Positions 10,407-23,484 of a stretch of DNA of 43,883 bases are shown piece by piece (within the stretch, counting starts at the first letter, position 1; every line of letters begins with the position of its first letter). The translations under genes were made by a program, and so were the position numbers. Source of the stretch: Alphaproteobacteria bacterium (GTDB taxonomy: Bacteria; Pseudomonadota; Alphaproteobacteria; Bin95); assembly GCA_022826185.1 (NCBI GenBank), contig JAJDVH010000195.1, positions 1 to 43,883 of the forward strand, written 5' to 3'. The notes under the pieces were generated by a model. It was not told the origin of the DNA. It worked only from the letters and a program-made list of their open reading frames with translations, and did no database searches.

Positions 10407-11684
10407 ATGGACGGGCAGGAAGCGATCGGAAACGAGGCTGCGGCGAAGGCGGGCGCGGAGTCTTCCGCCTATGTGCCGCCGCTCCAGTTGACGGAAGGCC
10501 AGCCGCCGCCCATCGCGGCGAATGGCGGCCTCTCCTACATGTCGTTCGACCGGGACGGCGATGCCGGAACCGCAGCCGCGATGGAGGCGGCGTTCCAGGA
10601 GATTGCCGACGGACACAGCAAGGCGCTCACAGACTGGATCGGGAATGCGCCTCCGGGACCCATTCAGACCAAATGGGGCCCGGGTTTTCGCGGATATCAG
10701 GAATGCGTGGATTATATCCGCGCCAACGGTTTCGAAGTTCCGGAAGGCGGCGTGGCGCTTCCCCTGCGCTACACCGTTTACGAGCACCCGTCCTACTCCG
10801 TCGTGTCGTCCAACGCCCTCTGGCGGGACCCGGCGCGGAAGGCCGATGCGGAACTGCTGCGCAAGGCGGAAGACGAAAGCAGGGACCGCAGCCTCTACTT
10901 CCCGCAAGTGCTGCGCGATGCGCGCCGGATCGGCGAATATTATCCGGGCCTGTCGCCCGACAGCCCGGAATGCATGGACAGGCTTGGCGTCTCGCTGGCG
11001 CATCTCGAGTCCGAGTGCACCAACTTCTACGATTCGGCCGAGGTGGAGCGCGTCTTCTATCCGGAGATCGAGAAACTTCTGCTGGAGTTCTTCCCCGATG
11101 CGACCGACGCGCTGGTCTATAACCACGATGTATTCGACAAGGACTATCAGGGCGACCGCACGGAAGACCAGGACGCCAAGAATCCCGGTGTAAACGCCCG
11201 TTACGCCAACCTCGTGCACAACGACCTGAACGACAATAGCGGGCGCGTGCGCTGCCGCGAGTTGCTGACGAAGAACCTGCGCAACTTCGGGCGCACGCAG
11301 CATTACACGGAGGCGGAAGCCGACGCGAAGATGTCGCGGCGGTTCATGTCGATCAATCTCGCCAAGCCGATGGAGACGGTGGAGCAGTTCCCCTTCGTGC
11401 TCTGCGCGTGGCCTTCCTTCGCCGACCAGCCCTACATCAACAACTACCGCATCTATGACGACCGCGTGGGCGAGACGACGCGCTTCACCTACCGTCCGGA
11501 CCATGAGTGGTACTGGTTCCCGCGTCAGACGCCGACGGAAGTGTCGATGCTGAAATGCTACGACTCGGTCACGGACGGCTCGGTGTCGCGCTGGTCGTTC
11601 CACACGGCCTGCCAGGACCCGACGGTGCCGGCCGATGCCTCCTGCCGCAAGAACGTCGTGGTCCGCTCCTACGTCTTCTTCTAG
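10407..11684 (+). CDS. CmcJ/NvfI-family non-heme iron oxygenase, paralogue 1
   Basis: A 425-residue protein whose C-terminal ~230 residues match the CmcJ/NvfI (AsaB-like) oxidoreductase family. The metal site would be His271 and Asp273 in LVHNDLNDNSGRVR plus His399 in WSFHTAC. Other family marks are FPFVLCAWPSF, DHEWYWFPRQ and MLKCYDS. Known members hydroxylate or rearrange natural products, using iron and 2-oxoglutarate or oxygen, but the substrate here cannot be read. The usual NVWRP segment is INLAKPM here. An extra N-terminal ~60 residues (LQLTEGQPPPIAANG) is shared only with the paralogue at 12586. The ATG at 10407 follows GGAGGA and is the start homologous to the second copy's. Confidence 0.8.
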   Translation: MDGQEAIGNEAAAKAGAESSAYVPPLQLTEGQPPPIAANGGLSYMSFDRDGDAGTAAAMEAAFQEIADGHSKALTDWIGNAPPGPIQTKWGPGFRGYQECVDYIRANGFEVPEGGVALPLRYTVYEHPSYSVVSSNALWRDPARKADAELLRKAEDESRDRSLYFPQVLRDARRIGEYYPGLSPDSPECMDRLGVSLAHLESECTNFYDSAEVERVFYPEIEKLLLEFFPDATDALVYNHDVFDKDYQGDRTEDQDAKNPGVNARYANLVHNDLNDNSGRVRCRELLTKNLRNFGRTQHYTEAEADAKMSRRFMSINLAKPMETVEQFPFVLCAWPSFADQPYINNYRIYDDRVGETTRFTYRPDHEWYWFPRQTPTEVSMLKCYDSVTDGSVSRWSFHTACQDPTVPADASCRKNVVVRSYVFF

Positions 11685-11737
11685 GAGTCCGAGAAAAGTC
11701 CGGCGGGTAACAGGATGGCCGCGGCATCGGGACAGGC

Positions 11738-12436
11738 TCAATATTCGTCGCGGCGGCGCACCCAACTCATCGGGAACGGCAGGTCCTGCTCATCGCGGCC
11801 CTTCGGCACGAGATCGAGAAGCTGGTAAGCCGCATTCATCGCGTCCAGCCCGCGCGCATAGCAGGAATAGGTGTGGAATATCCGCCCGGCCTCGTCCTTG
11901 CAGAAGGCGCTGAGGCCCGGGGCCTCGCTGCCGCGCATGGGCGTTTCGCGGTAGTTGTAGGAGACCGGCCCCGCCGCCAGCGCGTCTTCGTCGAAGGAAA
12001 CGCCGAAATCCATGTTGAAGCGGCTCGTCAGCGACGAGATCCACGGGAAGCGCCAGCCCATGCGGTCGCGATAGGTGAGGAGCGAGGCAAGTGGCGCGCG
12101 CGACACGGCCGCGAACGCGACATCCCGGGCCGCCAGGTGGACGACCATCGGGTCGTAGCCGTCGGCCCAGAAGGAACAGCTCGGGCAGCCCGCCTCCCAG
12201 TCCGGCCCGAACATGAAATGCGAGACGATAAGCTGGCTCCTGTCGTCGAACAGGTCGCCGAGGCGGACCTCGCCGATTTCGCTCTCGAACCGGTAATCCT
12301 CCCGGACCTCGACCCACGGCAGGGCCCGTCTGGCGGCGGCCAGCGCATCCCGTTCGCGCGTGAACGCCTTTTCGCGTTCGAGAAGCGCCCGGCGGGCTTC
12401 AAGCCATGTTTCGCGCGAGACAATTGGATGGGTCAT
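11738..12436 (-). CDS. DUF899 family thioredoxin-like protein
   Basis: A 232-residue member of the DUF899 group, a thioredoxin/AhpC-like fold lacking a proven reaction. The redox-type motif GCPSCSFWADG puts Cys84 and Cys87 in a CxxC arrangement, preceded by LIVSHFMFGPDWEAG and followed by VVHLAARDVAF. The ATG at 12436 begins MTHPIVSRETWLEARRALLE, typical of the family. The gene lies on the opposite strand between two CmcJ/NvfI paralogues, ending 53 bases from the first and diverging from the second across about 150 bases. It may have been caught between the arms of the duplication or may serve the same process; the sequence does not decide. Confidence 0.85.
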   Translation of the reverse strand: MTHPIVSRETWLEARRALLEREKAFTRERDALAAARRALPWVEVREDYRFESEIGEVRLGDLFDDRSQLIVSHFMFGPDWEAGCPSCSFWADGYDPMVVHLAARDVAFAAVSRAPLASLLTYRDRMGWRFPWISSLTSRFNMDFGVSFDEDALAAGPVSYNYRETPMRGSEAPGLSAFCKDEAGRIFHTYSCYARGLDAMNAAYQLLDLVPKGRDEQDLPFPMSWVRRRDEY

Positions 12437-12528
12437 GCGGCGCTTCCTGTGTGCAGTGTTACGAAGTCGCTCTTGCGGCGCAGGCATTTGTGCACCCGTC
12501 GCACGAATGCTGTGCGGGGGCGGGAGCC

Positions 12529-12558
12529 TTGGAAAACGGGAGTCCTTTCCTTCATAAT
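12529..12558 (+). promoter_or_regulatory. Candidate promoter of the second CmcJ/NvfI paralogue
   Basis: TTGGAA (12529-12534) and CATAAT (12553-12558), 18-base spacer, then AGG and, further on, the GGAGGA ribosome-binding site before the ATG at 12586. The arrangement is homologous to that at 10350-10379, but both boxes are closer to sigma-70 consensus. Confidence 0.5.
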
Positions 12559-12585
12559 AGGAATTATCCAGCCGGAGGACGAGTA

Positions 12586-13857
12586 ATGGACGGGCAGCAA
12601 GCCATCGGGAACCGGGTTGAGGCGGATGCGGGTTCGCCGGCCTATGTGCCGTCGCTCCAGTTGACGGAAGGGCAGCCGCCGCCCATCGCCGCGAATGGCG
12701 GCCTCTCCTACATGTCGTTCGACCGGAACGGCGATGCCGGAACCGGGGCGGCGTTGGAAGCGGCGCTCCAGCAGATCGCCGAGGGGCACAGCCAGGCGTT
12801 GATCGACCGGCTCGACAATGCGCCTCCGGGGCCCATCGAGACCAAGTGGGGTCCCGGTTTCCGCGAGTATGAGGAATGCCTGGACTATATCCGCGCCAAC
12901 GGTTTCGAGGTCCCCGAGGGCGGCGTGGCGCTTCCGCTGCGCTACACCGTTTACGAGCATCCGTCCTATTCCATCGTGCCGTCCAATGCGCTCTGGCGGG
13001 ACCCGGCGCGCAAGGCCGAGGCGGACGTGTTGCGCAAGGCCGAGGACGAGCTCAGGGACCGCAGCCTCTATTTCCCGCAGATGCTGCGCGATGCGCGCCG
13101 GATCGGCGAATATTATCCGGGCCTCTCGCCCAGCAGCCCGGAATGCATGGACAGGCTCGGCGTCTCGCTGGCGCATCTCGAGTCCGAGTGCACCAACTTC
13201 TACGATTCGGCCGAGGTTGAGCGCGTGTTCTACCCGGAGATCGAGAAGCTCCTGCTGGACTTCTTCCCCGATGCGACCGACGCGCTGGTCTATAACCACG
13301 ATGTGTTCGACAAGGATTACCAGGGCGACCGCACGGAAGACCAGGACGCCAAGAACCCCGGCGTGAACGCGCGCTATGTCAACCTCGTGCATAACGATCT
13401 GAACGACAATAGCGGGCGCGTGCGCTGCCGCGAATTGCTGACGAAGAACCTGCGCAACTTCGGGCGCACGCAGCATTACACGGAGGCCGAGGCCGACGCG
13501 AAGATGTCGCGGCGGTTCATGTCGATCAACCTCGCCAAGCCGATGGAGACGGTGGAGCAGTTCCCCTTCGTGCTGTGCGCGTGGCCTTCCTTCGCCGACC
13601 AGCCCTACATCAACAACTACCGCATCTATGACGACCGGGTGGGGGAGACGACGCGCTTCACCTACCGTCCGGACCATGAGTGGTACTGGTTCCCGCGGCA
13701 GGGACCGACGGAAGTGTCGATGTTGAAATGCTACGACTCGGTCACGGACGGTTCGGTGTCGCGCTGGTCGTTCCACTCGGCCTGCATCGATCCGACGGCG
13801 CCTGCCGACGCGCGTTGCCGCAAGAACGTGGTGGTCCGCTCCTACGTCTTCTTCTAG
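12586..13857 (+). CDS. CmcJ/NvfI-family non-heme iron oxygenase, paralogue 2
   Basis: A 423-residue near-duplicate of the protein at 10407, with all the same family motifs: LVHNDLNDNSGRVR, FPFVLCAWPSF, DHEWYWFPRQ, MLKCYDS, WSFHSAC. Over the last ~235 residues I count only about eight differences from paralogue 1. The first ~190 residues differ far more (for example DWIGNAPPGPI against DRLDNAPPGPI). At DNA level the second half is almost unchanged, including most third codon positions, which suggests recent gene conversion or purifying selection. Nothing nearby looks like a peptide- or polyketide-synthesis cluster, so the substrate is unknown. The gene ends close to a strong hairpin shared with the convergent hyuB. 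Confidence 0.8.
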   Translation: MDGQQAIGNRVEADAGSPAYVPSLQLTEGQPPPIAANGGLSYMSFDRNGDAGTGAALEAALQQIAEGHSQALIDRLDNAPPGPIETKWGPGFREYEECLDYIRANGFEVPEGGVALPLRYTVYEHPSYSIVPSNALWRDPARKAEADVLRKAEDELRDRSLYFPQMLRDARRIGEYYPGLSPSSPECMDRLGVSLAHLESECTNFYDSAEVERVFYPEIEKLLLDFFPDATDALVYNHDVFDKDYQGDRTEDQDAKNPGVNARYVNLVHNDLNDNSGRVRCRELLTKNLRNFGRTQHYTEAEADAKMSRRFMSINLAKPMETVEQFPFVLCAWPSFADQPYINNYRIYDDRVGETTRFTYRPDHEWYWFPRQGPTEVSMLKCYDSVTDGSVSRWSFHSACIDPTAPADARCRKNVVVRSYVFF

Positions 13858-21002: not shown

Positions 21003-21083
21003 AGCGGGACAGGAACGGCTCCCGCACCGGCCCTTTTCAACCGCACGGAGCCTCTCCGGGGCTTTGGCTCGCAGGAGGCATCC

Positions 21084-21482
21084 ATGACCGGAACGGCGTA
21101 CGGAGAGGTAGGATTTTGCGCTCCGGGGGCGGATCCCGAACCGAAGCATTTCTGCCCGGGTTGCGGGAAGGCGCTGCCGTTTTACCCTCGTTATCCTTGG
21201 TATTTCTGCGAAGGCTGCCTGACGGAAGCGGAAGACGGGGACGGGTATCGTCTGGAATTCGCGAATGTCGATCTGTCGGGCGGCTTTCAATGGCGTCGCG
21301 CCGGTTCACCGGACTGGCAGGTCGACGGTGAATTGTGCTGCCTGTTGCGCGGACGACCGGTAGTTGTCGGCGAGGCGCGTATGGGCGGGATCGTGGCGCA
21401 ACCGATAGATTCTTCGGCCGTCTGGGCCTCTCCTGATCCGGACAGACGGCTGCGGGATGTAACCCGCAGACAACGCCGTTAG
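21084..21482 (+). CDS. Small zinc-ribbon protein of unknown function
   Basis: 132 residues. Cys24, Cys27, Cys42 and Cys45 form a CxxC-14-CxxC zinc ribbon within HFCPGCGKALPFYP and WYFCEGCLTE. The rest is hydrophilic, with no other known domain, and the C-terminus is Arg-rich. The ATG at 21084 follows GCAGGAGGCATCC, a good ribosome-binding site. I do not recognise the family. The C-terminal third reads less like a conserved protein, and an earlier true end cannot be excluded. Confidence 0.6.
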   Translation: MTGTAYGEVGFCAPGADPEPKHFCPGCGKALPFYPRYPWYFCEGCLTEAEDGDGYRLEFANVDLSGGFQWRRAGSPDWQVDGELCCLLRGRPVVVGEARMGGIVAQPIDSSAVWASPDPDRRLRDVTRRQRR

Positions 21483-21536
21483 CTTGCTGCAATGCTCGCC
21501 GGATCGGTCGGGGAGCCGACGGGCAGTTTGGAAAGA

Positions 21537-21611
21537 TGGCTCCGCGGGTAGGATTCGAACCTACGACCAATCGGTTAACAGCCGACCGCTCTACCACTGA
21601 GCTACCGCGGA
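21537..21611 (-). tRNA. tRNA-Asn (GTT)
   Basis: The minus-strand cloverleaf includes an encoded CCA: acceptor TCCGCGG pairs with CCGCGGA, D arm around AGCTCAGTGGTAGAGC, anticodon loop CTGTTAA with GTT, T arm GTAGGTTCGAATCCTAC. It lies 53 bases from the 27 bp tRNA-Cys fragment, the probable original spacing to tRNA-Cys. A TATAAG (minus, 21636-21631) in that spacer could be its own -10 box, though the matching -35 is poor. Confidence 0.97.
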
Positions 21612-21664: not shown

Positions 21665-21691
21665 TGGAGGCGCGGACCGGATTCGAACCGG
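21665..21691 (-). repeat. Left attachment-site copy (tRNA-Cys 3' end fragment)
   Basis: 27 bases identical to 23191-23217, beginning TGGAGGCGCGGACCGG on the plus strand. Identity stops abruptly after GAACCGG. It is too short to be a tRNA itself and marks the tRNA-Asn-proximal boundary of the insert. Confidence 0.85.
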
Positions 21692-21703
21692 AACGGCGCC
21701 GGT

Positions 21704-21733
21704 GTCCGTAACCGCCCAAAGTGGGCAACGGAC
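21704..21733. other. Hairpin at the insert's left inner edge
   Basis: GTCCG (21704-21708) pairs with CGGAC (21729-21733) around an inner stem GCCCA/TGGGC, only 12 bases inside the attachment copy. It may be an integrase arm site, a transcript end or incidental. The remaining bases to 21852 hold no gene I can support. Confidence 0.4.
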
Positions 21734-21852
21734 GGAGAATCGGCCCGTTGCCCCGCGGCGCGTGGTTGCTTATGTCGCGACGCTCCGCTGCGAAGCGCCG
21801 GGCGTTCGGCAAAGCACACCTTCAACCCCATTCCCGGAAAGGGACTCTGACC

Positions 21853-22197
21853 ATGAAGAATTTCGTTCAACCGGGCGAAAATCTGACCGTCGTGGCTCCC
21901 GCCAATACGGACAGCGGCGACCTTGTGCTTATCGGTGCGGCGCTGTTCGGCGTTGCGGCGGATGACGCCAAGAACGGCGCGGACCTTACCATTTCGGCGG
22001 GAGGCGTTTACAACCTTCCCGCCGTCGCGGCGAACAACTGGGCAGCCGGGGCGAAGCTCTACCGGGAAGCGACGGCCGGCGACGATTTGGGCAAGCTGAC
22101 GGACGCGGAAGCGGGCAATCTGCTTGTCGGCGTTGCCGTCCAGGCGAAGACGGCGAACGCCGTATCGGCACCGGTCCGGCTCAATCCGGCATTCTGA
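21853..22197 (+). CDS. DUF2190 family phage capsid-decoration-type protein
   Basis: A 114-residue protein opening MKNFVQPGENLTVVAPANTD, then SGDLVLIGAALFGVA and LLVGVAVQAKTA. This is the beta-rich DUF2190 pattern seen next to major capsid genes of tailed phages, where members act as capsid decoration or head-stabilising proteins. Length fits the family. The ATG at 21853 is preceded by GGAAAGGGA. Here it stands without any terminase, portal, protease or capsid gene, so on its own it cannot build a particle. It either survived a prophage deletion or now serves something else, such as dressing a helper phage capsid. Family call fairly sure; role inferred. Confidence 0.75.
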   Translation: MKNFVQPGENLTVVAPANTDSGDLVLIGAALFGVAADDAKNGADLTISAGGVYNLPAVAANNWAAGAKLYREATAGDDLGKLTDAEAGNLLVGVAVQAKTANAVSAPVRLNPAF

Positions 22198-22237
22198 TAC
22201 CGACCAGAAGCTGGACACAATTGCGGGGATGTGATAA

Positions 22238-22273
22238 TGAAAAAGCACGGCAAGGCCACATCCTTGCCGTGCT
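22238..22273 (-). terminator. Rho-independent terminator of the winged-helix gene
   Basis: AGCACGGCAAGG (22244-22255) pairs perfectly with CCTTGCCGTGCT (22262-22273) across a 6-base loop. On the minus strand it is followed by TTTTTC, the classic terminator layout, about 80 bases after the winged-helix gene's stop. The plus-strand side lacks a U tract. Confidence 0.8.
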
Positions 22274-22283
22274 CCGCTGTTAG

Positions 22284-22317
22284 GCTAGTGCCGCAGCCCG
22301 TGAGCTACGGCACTAGC
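22284..22317. other. Stable hairpin between terminator and winged-helix gene
   Basis: GCTAGTGCCG (22284-22293) pairs with CGGCACTAGC (22308-22317), and inside it AGC pairs with GCT. No U tract follows on either strand, so it does not look like a terminator. It lies in the 3' untranslated region of the winged-helix mRNA. Confidence 0.6.
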
Positions 22318-22355
22318 AACAAGATGGTTTGTCCCATCATGGGATGCCTCCTTTC

Positions 22356-22898
22356 CTATGCCTTCTTCGCAGGCGGGGTTAGCGGAAAGGCGCCGGGAGT
22401 GGTTACAACACTCCCGGCGCTCATTTCTGAGGCGGATGTGGCCGCCTCATTCTCGTCGAAAGCGATGGCGGTCGTAACGGCCGACGCTTCAATTCCTTGG
22501 CTTTCGTCATCAGTGTGGGCTAGGGAAACACACCGATGCCGTCCGTTGTCCTGACGCTCTAGTTCTCCGGCTTTCTTCTTCTCGTAGAGGATCGAGCGTA
22601 TGGTGGCTTGTTTGACCTCTTCACCGGAATCTTCAAGCCGTTGGTAAATTTCCCGCGTCGCAAGGCCGCGCGAACCCGCCTCCCGAACGATGTCCAGCAC
22701 GCGAGCCGTGTAGGAACCATCGCGTCTGACTCCAGTTGCTCCGCCTATCGTGCCGGCGCGGGCCTTAGCGTATAGAGATAGCGCGTGCGACAGTGCTTTC
22801 CTACGAATTTCCACAGCCGTGGCCTCGTCTCTGAGTGCCGCAGCCTTCTCATTGCACGAACTGATCTCAGCGCGTAGGGTCGTCTCGTAGGCGTCCAT
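22356..22898 (-). CDS. Winged-helix protein with N-terminal coiled coil
   Basis: 180 residues. Residues 1-60 are Ala/Glu/Lys-rich and helical, probably a coiled coil (ETTLRAEISSCNEKAAALRD). Residues ~68-120 form a winged helix: YTARVLDIVREAGSRGLATR, EIYQRLEDSGEEVKQATIRS, ILYEKKKAGELERQDNGRHR. The tail is flexible and Thr/Ser/Ala-rich. This layout suits a phage or plasmid DNA-binding protein, but I do not recognise a named family. The ATG at 22898 is preceded by GGAAAGGATAG; an upstream ATG would add 19 residues of weak quality. Codon use is less GC-biased than its neighbours, which fits horizontal origin. Its mRNA ends in a clear terminator. Confidence 0.65.
   Translation of the reverse strand: MDAYETTLRAEISSCNEKAAALRDEATAVEIRRKALSHALSLYAKARAGTIGGATGVRRDGSYTARVLDIVREAGSRGLATREIYQRLEDSGEEVKQATIRSILYEKKKAGELERQDNGRHRCVSLAHTDDESQGIEASAVTTAIAFDENEAATSASEMSAGSVVTTPGAFPLTPPAKKA
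22390..22449. other. Two perfect hairpins within the winged-helix gene's 3' coding end
   Basis: GCGCCGGGAGTG (22390-22401) pairs with CACTCCCGGCGC (22409-22420), a 12 bp stem. TGAGGCGG (22428-22435) pairs with CCGCCTCA (22442-22449), an 8 bp stem. Both lie in frame inside the last ~35 codons of the winged-helix gene. With the hairpins at 22244-22273 and 22284-22317 they make four perfect stem-loops in about 210 bases. Confidence 0.6.
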
Positions 22899-23190
22899 GA
22901 CACTATCCTTTCCGATAGCGACTATGAGTTTAATCGCCCCACGTCGTGCCGTCAAGTGGTCTCCGGACGAAAATTTGTGCGTCCACTACGCCGTCAAATC
23001 TTCTCGGTTCTGCATTTTGGTCTGACAGCGTAGCAGCGTGTTCGACAATGAGCCTGGCGGGCTGGAGAGCAACTGCTCTGAAGCCGACTAGGTCGATTCT
23101 GGATATAGCAGCAAGGCCAACTCGTTGCCCATATGGTGCCTACACCAAGAATTTGGCCGGCTGTTCAATTAGCTAAGGTATTGTTTTTAT
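22899..23190. other. AT-richer stretch without a supported gene
   Basis: Base composition is clearly lower in GC than elsewhere in the window. One minus-strand frame is open from a TAG at 23142-23140 to a TAA at 22932-22930, about 69 codons ending PLDGTTWGD, but it has no usable start codon and could be the tail of a truncated gene. A short plus frame from 22946 also exists without any recognisable domain. Likely decayed element DNA. Confidence 0.35.
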
Positions 23191-23264
23191 TGGAGGCGCG
23201 GACCGGATTCGAACCGGTGTAAGCGGATTTGCAGTCCGATGGATAGCCACTCTCCCACCGCGCC
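23191..23264 (-). tRNA. tRNA-Cys (GCA)
   Basis: Minus-strand cloverleaf with encoded CCA: acceptor GGCGCGG/CCGCGCC, anticodon loop CTGCAAA with GCA, T arm ACCGGTTCGAATCCGGT. It is complete, so the insertion regenerated a functional gene, with the insert lying on its 3' side. A good promoter lies just upstream. Confidence 0.97.
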
Positions 23265-23380: not shown

Positions 23381-23484
23381 TCACCCTCATCCTGAGTAGC
23401 GACCGCGCCAGCGGGCGCGTATCGAAGGATACCCCGTGCCGTCCCTCGATACGCGGCTGGCGCCGCTACTCGGGATGAGGGTGA
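23381..23484. repeat. Long imperfect palindromic intergenic repeat
   Basis: The left arm starts TCACCCTCATCCTGAGTAGC (23381) and runs to about 23428. The right arm (23443-23484) is its near-complete inverse, ending GGGATGAGGGTGA. Small internal gaps separate the matching blocks, and the loop is ~14 bases. Elements of this shape and sequence flavour are dispersed through many alphaproteobacterial genomes. It could fold into a long RNA hairpin between tRNA-Cys and the CoA-transferase gene. Confidence 0.8.

Follow-up and report, generated by a model that had tools for sequence, protein, structure and literature searches.

A 1.5-kb insert at an alphaproteobacterial tRNA-Cys gene, probably what is left of a capsid-encoding, apparently tail-less element

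The DNA analysed here (the window) is a 43,883-nucleotide contig of a 4.48-Mb alphaproteobacterial genome, in which the 3' end of a tRNA-Cys gene, the sole tRNA-Cys among the tRNAs detected in that genome, is repeated on the far side of a short insert (Table 1). The 27-nt repeat, TGGAGGCGCGGACCGGATTCGAACCGG, is identical at 21665-21691 and 23191-23217, takes in the T arm and acceptor stem of the tRNA together with its CCA end, and has only these two copies in the genome when its 26-nt core is searched with up to two mismatches. Such a tRNA 3' end is a usual target of tyrosine recombinases. At the other tRNAs detected in the genome, a search of about 3.5 kb on either side (or as far as the contig end) for the 3' 24-mer, with up to 4 mismatches, gave no second copy, except that two tRNA-Leu genes resemble each other at the 4-mismatch limit; that pair aside, the att-type repeat at tRNA-Cys is therefore not a background feature. 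The insert has a GC fraction of 0.589 against 0.675 for the window, close to the lowest among 1.5-kb segments, and contains a DUF2190 gene, a coiled-coil/HTH gene and a gpW remnant. A preliminary description of this DNA had claimed a 27-bp direct repeat of the tRNA-Cys 3' end bounding about 1.5 kb, a DUF2190 gene of capsid-decoration type and the lack of an integrase. All three hold: the repeat is exact, the gene matches PF09956 (Phage_cement_2, 3e-22) and PHROG 122 ('head decoration', 2e-25), and no integrase was found in 21692-23190.

Table 1. Features at the tRNA-Cys locus of the window
Feature	Position	Strand	Basis or remark
tRNA-Asn (GTT), neighbour of the target tRNA-Cys	21537..21611	-	ARAGORN
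attL-type copy, last 27 nt of tRNA-Cys, distal insert end	21665..21691	-	exact direct repeat
gpW-like head-tail adaptor remnant, C-terminal part, frameshifted	21692..21852	+	pairwise score against L112
DUF2190 / Phage_cement_2 head decoration gene, 114 aa, open	21853..22197	+	PF09956, PHROG 122
Perfect 12-bp inverted repeat, terminator-like, past the DUF2190 gene	22244..22273	.	from sequence
Cargo gene, 180 aa, predicted coiled coil and HTH, without known family	about 22356..22898	-	low-confidence model
Perfect 12-bp inverted repeat within the 3' end of the HTH gene	22390..22420	.	G007 contig begins at its edge
attR, T-rich flank ATTGnTTTTnTTGGAGG plus 27-bp core	23174..23217	-	flank also in G006:C35 and G007
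tRNA-Cys (GCA), integration target, intact	23191..23264	-	ARAGORN

The source genome has no PF09956 gene other than this DUF2190 gene. The 161 bp between attL and this gene translate as TAPVSVTAQSGQRTENRPVAPRRVVAYVATLRCEAPG, which aligns with TMAVSVTDQNGEKVEYRPTNRAALERYVADLEAELAG, the gpW of locus L112, one of the class-B loci described below; the C-terminal end of gpW appears to go on in a different frame at the window junction. The alignment scores 68, as high as none of 3000 random segments from the same genome. Profile HMM scores were weak, so that the identification rests on pairwise comparison with a null distribution, by which the segment is the remnant of a gpW-like adaptor. That a decoration gene should stand with no other head gene had at first been found odd, and DUF2190 is indeed the only head gene intact, but with the gpW remnant beside it the oddity is largely explained.

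The product of the cargo gene gave no significant match in family searches (Pfam, PHROG). Its structural model, of low confidence (pLDDT 57), begins with a coil helix at the N terminus, and HTH-like helices come next; the winged helix proposed earlier is thus no more than plausible. The only homologue among the genome contigs is in the congener G007 (84% aa); 385 genomes of the class gave only weak, chance-like matches (27-32%), and phages and viral contigs gave none. Between the window and G007 the gene has dN 0.084 and dS 0.40 (NG86), or dN 0.092 and dS 0.29 (YN00), and by the resulting dN/dS of 0.21-0.32 it is under purifying selection. Two host genes compared between these genomes, CoA transferase and beta-lactamase-like, give dS of 0.33 and 0.41; since the dS of the HTH gene is like that of the host genes, the insert would be as old as the host split, which fits its presence, with the HTH gene, already in the common ancestor of the two hosts. 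Immediately past the HTH stop codon lies an 11-codon ORF (22305-22340, minus strand; MMGQTILLLVP) with a strong Shine-Dalgarno sequence, followed by a hairpin.

Sixty relatives were searched for the tRNA-Cys site and the matching regions retrieved. The site is empty in four congeneric haplotypes (G002, G004, G005 and G006:C141), with the repeat single-copy in each and a tRNA-Cys/tRNA-Asn spacer of exactly 53 bp, where about 53 bases had been predicted. Related inserts lie at the same tRNA-Cys in two further congeners, G006:C35 (left half) and G007 (right half), and ATTGnTTTTnTTGGAGG is common to all three insert junctions. In G007 (JAPOZD010000245.1, an alphaproteobacterial MAG) the contig begins inside the insert, so that the right half alone is covered, with 80% nt identity. 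G006:C35 is a second haplotype of the G006 MAG, with flanking DNA 95-96% identical to that of the empty C141. Its insert has a 46-bp imperfect att repeat, a frameshifted DUF2190 copy (61% aa against the window over the alignable parts) and right-hand ORFs unrelated to those of the window insert, only the left half being common. The segment before its DUF2190 scores against gpW at a level reached by 1 of 3000 random segments, and the att copy adjoins a shortened gpW in both units. In a DUF2190 tree, whose placement of the two carries no support values, the window and C35 copies group together, with the class-B loci L093 and L102 nearest. A further DUF2190 gene, in G004, was set aside as part of a Mu-like head-gene cluster.

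A full prophage at this site in relatives, which the preliminary description had named as grounds for refuting its reading, was not seen; nor was a complete element of any kind found at tRNA-Cys in any relative of the family searched. Hits on G001:C19 were discarded, being located in unrelated tRNA genes. That contig, possibly foreign to its MAG, carries an unusual tRNA cluster (Leu AAG, Ala CGC, Leu TAG, Ala AGC; L142 4680-5456 and 9559-9633) with 3' ends similar to the tRNA-Cys repeat. We also note some neighbouring features: (i) A second, smaller insertion (0.5 kb, 21023-21535) with a 132-aa zinc-ribbon-like ORF lies at the 3' end of tRNA-Asn and is missing in G002, G004 and G006:C35, while G006:C141 has a different, 2.2-kb insertion with a DUF4145 protein at that end. 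(ii) An inverted-repeat element at 23381-23484, MITE- or REP-like, occurs at many loci in the congeners. (iii) Long exact repeats at a spacing of 2173 bp (10518-13085) are probably a tandem gene duplication.

The preliminary description had envisaged a very small satellite that alters the capsid of a helper phage and moves with a borrowed integrase. In a fuller form, the shortened unit itself would be a micro-satellite moving across species, with integrase and capsids provided in trans by larger satellites or phages, an exchangeable cargo, and DUF2190 as its means of capsid targeting. Inserts at the same site in three species, a left module common to window and C35 beside unrelated right halves, and the coexistence of occupied and empty haplotypes in one MAG would all suit such a unit. 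So would the DUF2190 divergence between window and C35, with a dS of 0.77, from only 113 codons, that is about twice the host dS of 0.37-0.42 and hints that the two units were acquired separately. We nevertheless consider this reading very unlikely. The unit is single-copy in the window genome; packaging, replication and excision genes are absent, the C35 DUF2190 is frameshifted, the 27-mer has no match as an attP core in IMG/VR, and the exact att/gpW junctions of the two units differ. The host-like dS of the HTH gene is moreover consistent with vertical inheritance. We infer that the 1.5-kb unit is at present immobile and that its parent was a satellite rather than a prophage.

The case for such a parent comes from the gene order around DUF2190, compared in about 100 loci from IMG/VR, other alphaproteobacterial genomes and phage RcOceanus. 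The majority order is terminase - gpW - portal - protease/capsid - DUF2190 - connector - tail. Rhodobacter phage RcOceanus and its relatives have a DUF2190 homologue (48.7% identity) adjoining a protease/capsid fusion gene, but are full tailed phages with gpW before the portal and tail genes after DUF2190. A second group, class B, has a gpW-like adaptor (PHROG 2545, head-tail adaptor Ad1) immediately upstream of DUF2190; loci were assigned to it by a rule on sequence, probably wrongly for L092 at least. A tRNA is present in 14 of the 27 gpW-DUF2190 loci (which include two pairs of near-identical contigs), in each case 0.7-2.7 kb downstream of where DUF2190 starts and on the strand opposite to it, and in 1 of the 72 remaining loci, there on the other strand (Fisher p 7e-9). 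The window insert presents the same arrangement, the end of a gpW-DUF2190 head module facing a tRNA: the gpW is a remnant, the orientation agrees, and the DUF2190-tRNA distance of 1.34 kb (1.31 kb in C35) is within the class-B geometry.

Two other loci of the survey may be mentioned. L187 (3936-7249, G109:C3) has another orphan DUF2190, next to a HipA-like toxin gene and with head genes otherwise lacking in its vicinity; no tRNA was found there, nor a gpW remnant above chance. In L188 (3245-4665, G354:C111) a truncated tRNA-Thr-like fragment has an integrase gene on one side and degenerate head genes with DUF2190 on the other, which suggests tandem elements at one tRNA site.

Decay of a prophage had been proposed from the start, and the insert could in principle be what is left of an ordinary tailed temperate phage in tRNA-Cys, reduced to one head gene and one accessory gene. 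Prophage decay is common, DUF2190 is found most often in prophages and phages, and one locus (L175) combines the gpW-DUF2190 order with a putative tail (tape-measure) gene. The decay part of that proposal stands; an ordinary prophage as the source is unlikely, since the gpW remnant and the tRNA-facing order favour a satellite. The examined tailed phages of the other order have the capsid gene before DUF2190 and tail genes after it, and a tRNA facing DUF2190 within 3 kb is, by the counts above, largely confined to the gpW order.

Three class-B elements could be delimited by tRNA-end repeats: an 11.8-kb element in tRNA-Gly (G294, 49-bp repeat), in which a small terminase subunit was found, a 12.5-kb element in tRNA-Phe (G341, 17-bp repeat) and a 16.7-kb element in tRNA-Met (G055, 21-bp repeat) with a DNA methylase as cargo. 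Scanning their ORFs identified integrase, primase, terminase, lambda-type portal, protease/capsid fusion, gpW and DUF2190, and no match to tail families. The order in intact alphaproteobacterial relatives is replication genes - terminase - portal - protease/capsid fusion - gpW - DUF2190 - integrase/cargo - tRNA. No homologue of the HTH cargo or of the 132-aa zinc-ribbon protein was found in class-B loci. Loci L226, L227 and L229 are capsid-encoding, tRNA-integrated, apparently tail-less alphaproteobacterial elements, the last with a C5 DNA methylase as cargo.

In gene content and size, on which the comparison was made, class-B elements resemble the capsid-forming PICIs (cf-PICIs), which are integrated, average about 14 kb and encode terminase, portal, protease, capsid and connectors, with tails supplied by the helper (PMC10690885, PMC10803314): they carry the same gene classes in 11.8-16.7 kb. 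The cf-PICIs have been described mainly from Enterobacteriaceae, Firmicutes and Pasteurella (PMC10803314), and the papers found list none from Alphaproteobacteria. The window insert differs from them in lacking an integrase and the genes for terminase, portal, protease and capsid, with DUF2190 and a piece of gpW as all that is left.

We therefore regard the insert as the likely collapsed remnant of a tRNA-integrated, capsid-encoding, apparently tail-less element of cf-PICI-like organisation. The parent would have integrated by means of a tyrosine recombinase at the 3' terminus of the sole tRNA-Cys gene, leaving a 27-bp duplicate (originally perhaps 46 bp). A deletion running from the distal att copy (attL) into the middle of gpW may then have removed the integrase, replication, packaging and capsid genes, and DUF2190 would have survived because it is the last head gene in the parent order. 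One-sided decay of such an element is expected to leave an orphan decoration gene. The product would be attL / gpW' - DUF2190 - cargo - attR, an att-bounded, CIME-like unit with a useful cargo gene. Some points count against this proposal: no intact parent was found at tRNA-Cys in the genus, nor the 27-mer in IMG/VR, the gpW-DUF2190 order is also seen with a putative tail gene in L175, and the HTH cargo has no class-B counterpart.

Two other kinds of reduced or very small element invite comparison. A CIME is an element without integration and transfer genes that has kept attL and attR (PMC5704250); the insert similarly keeps an exact 27-bp att pair, with precise empty sites known, and has lost its integrase, but CIMEs are decayed ICEs or IMEs, whereas the genes here are of phage head type and no conjugation gene is present. 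PICMIs are very small integrated satellites of marine bacteria (PMC10803314). They have an integrase, AlpA, a primase and a site beside fis, none of which the insert has, its target being tRNA-Cys, and they are without a capsid gene.

For Alphaproteobacteria, a gpW-DUF2190 pair followed by an opposite-strand tRNA may serve as a rule that often marks a capsid-encoding, seemingly tail-less element, and stubs of such elements should be recognisable by the gpW C-terminus, which helps to interpret orphan head genes that lie next to tRNAs. More attention may be due to the intact alphaproteobacterial elements than to the 1.5-kb stub. The stub itself suggests that a cargo gene may outlast its satellite, purifying selection having kept the HTH gene for roughly the time since the two host species split.
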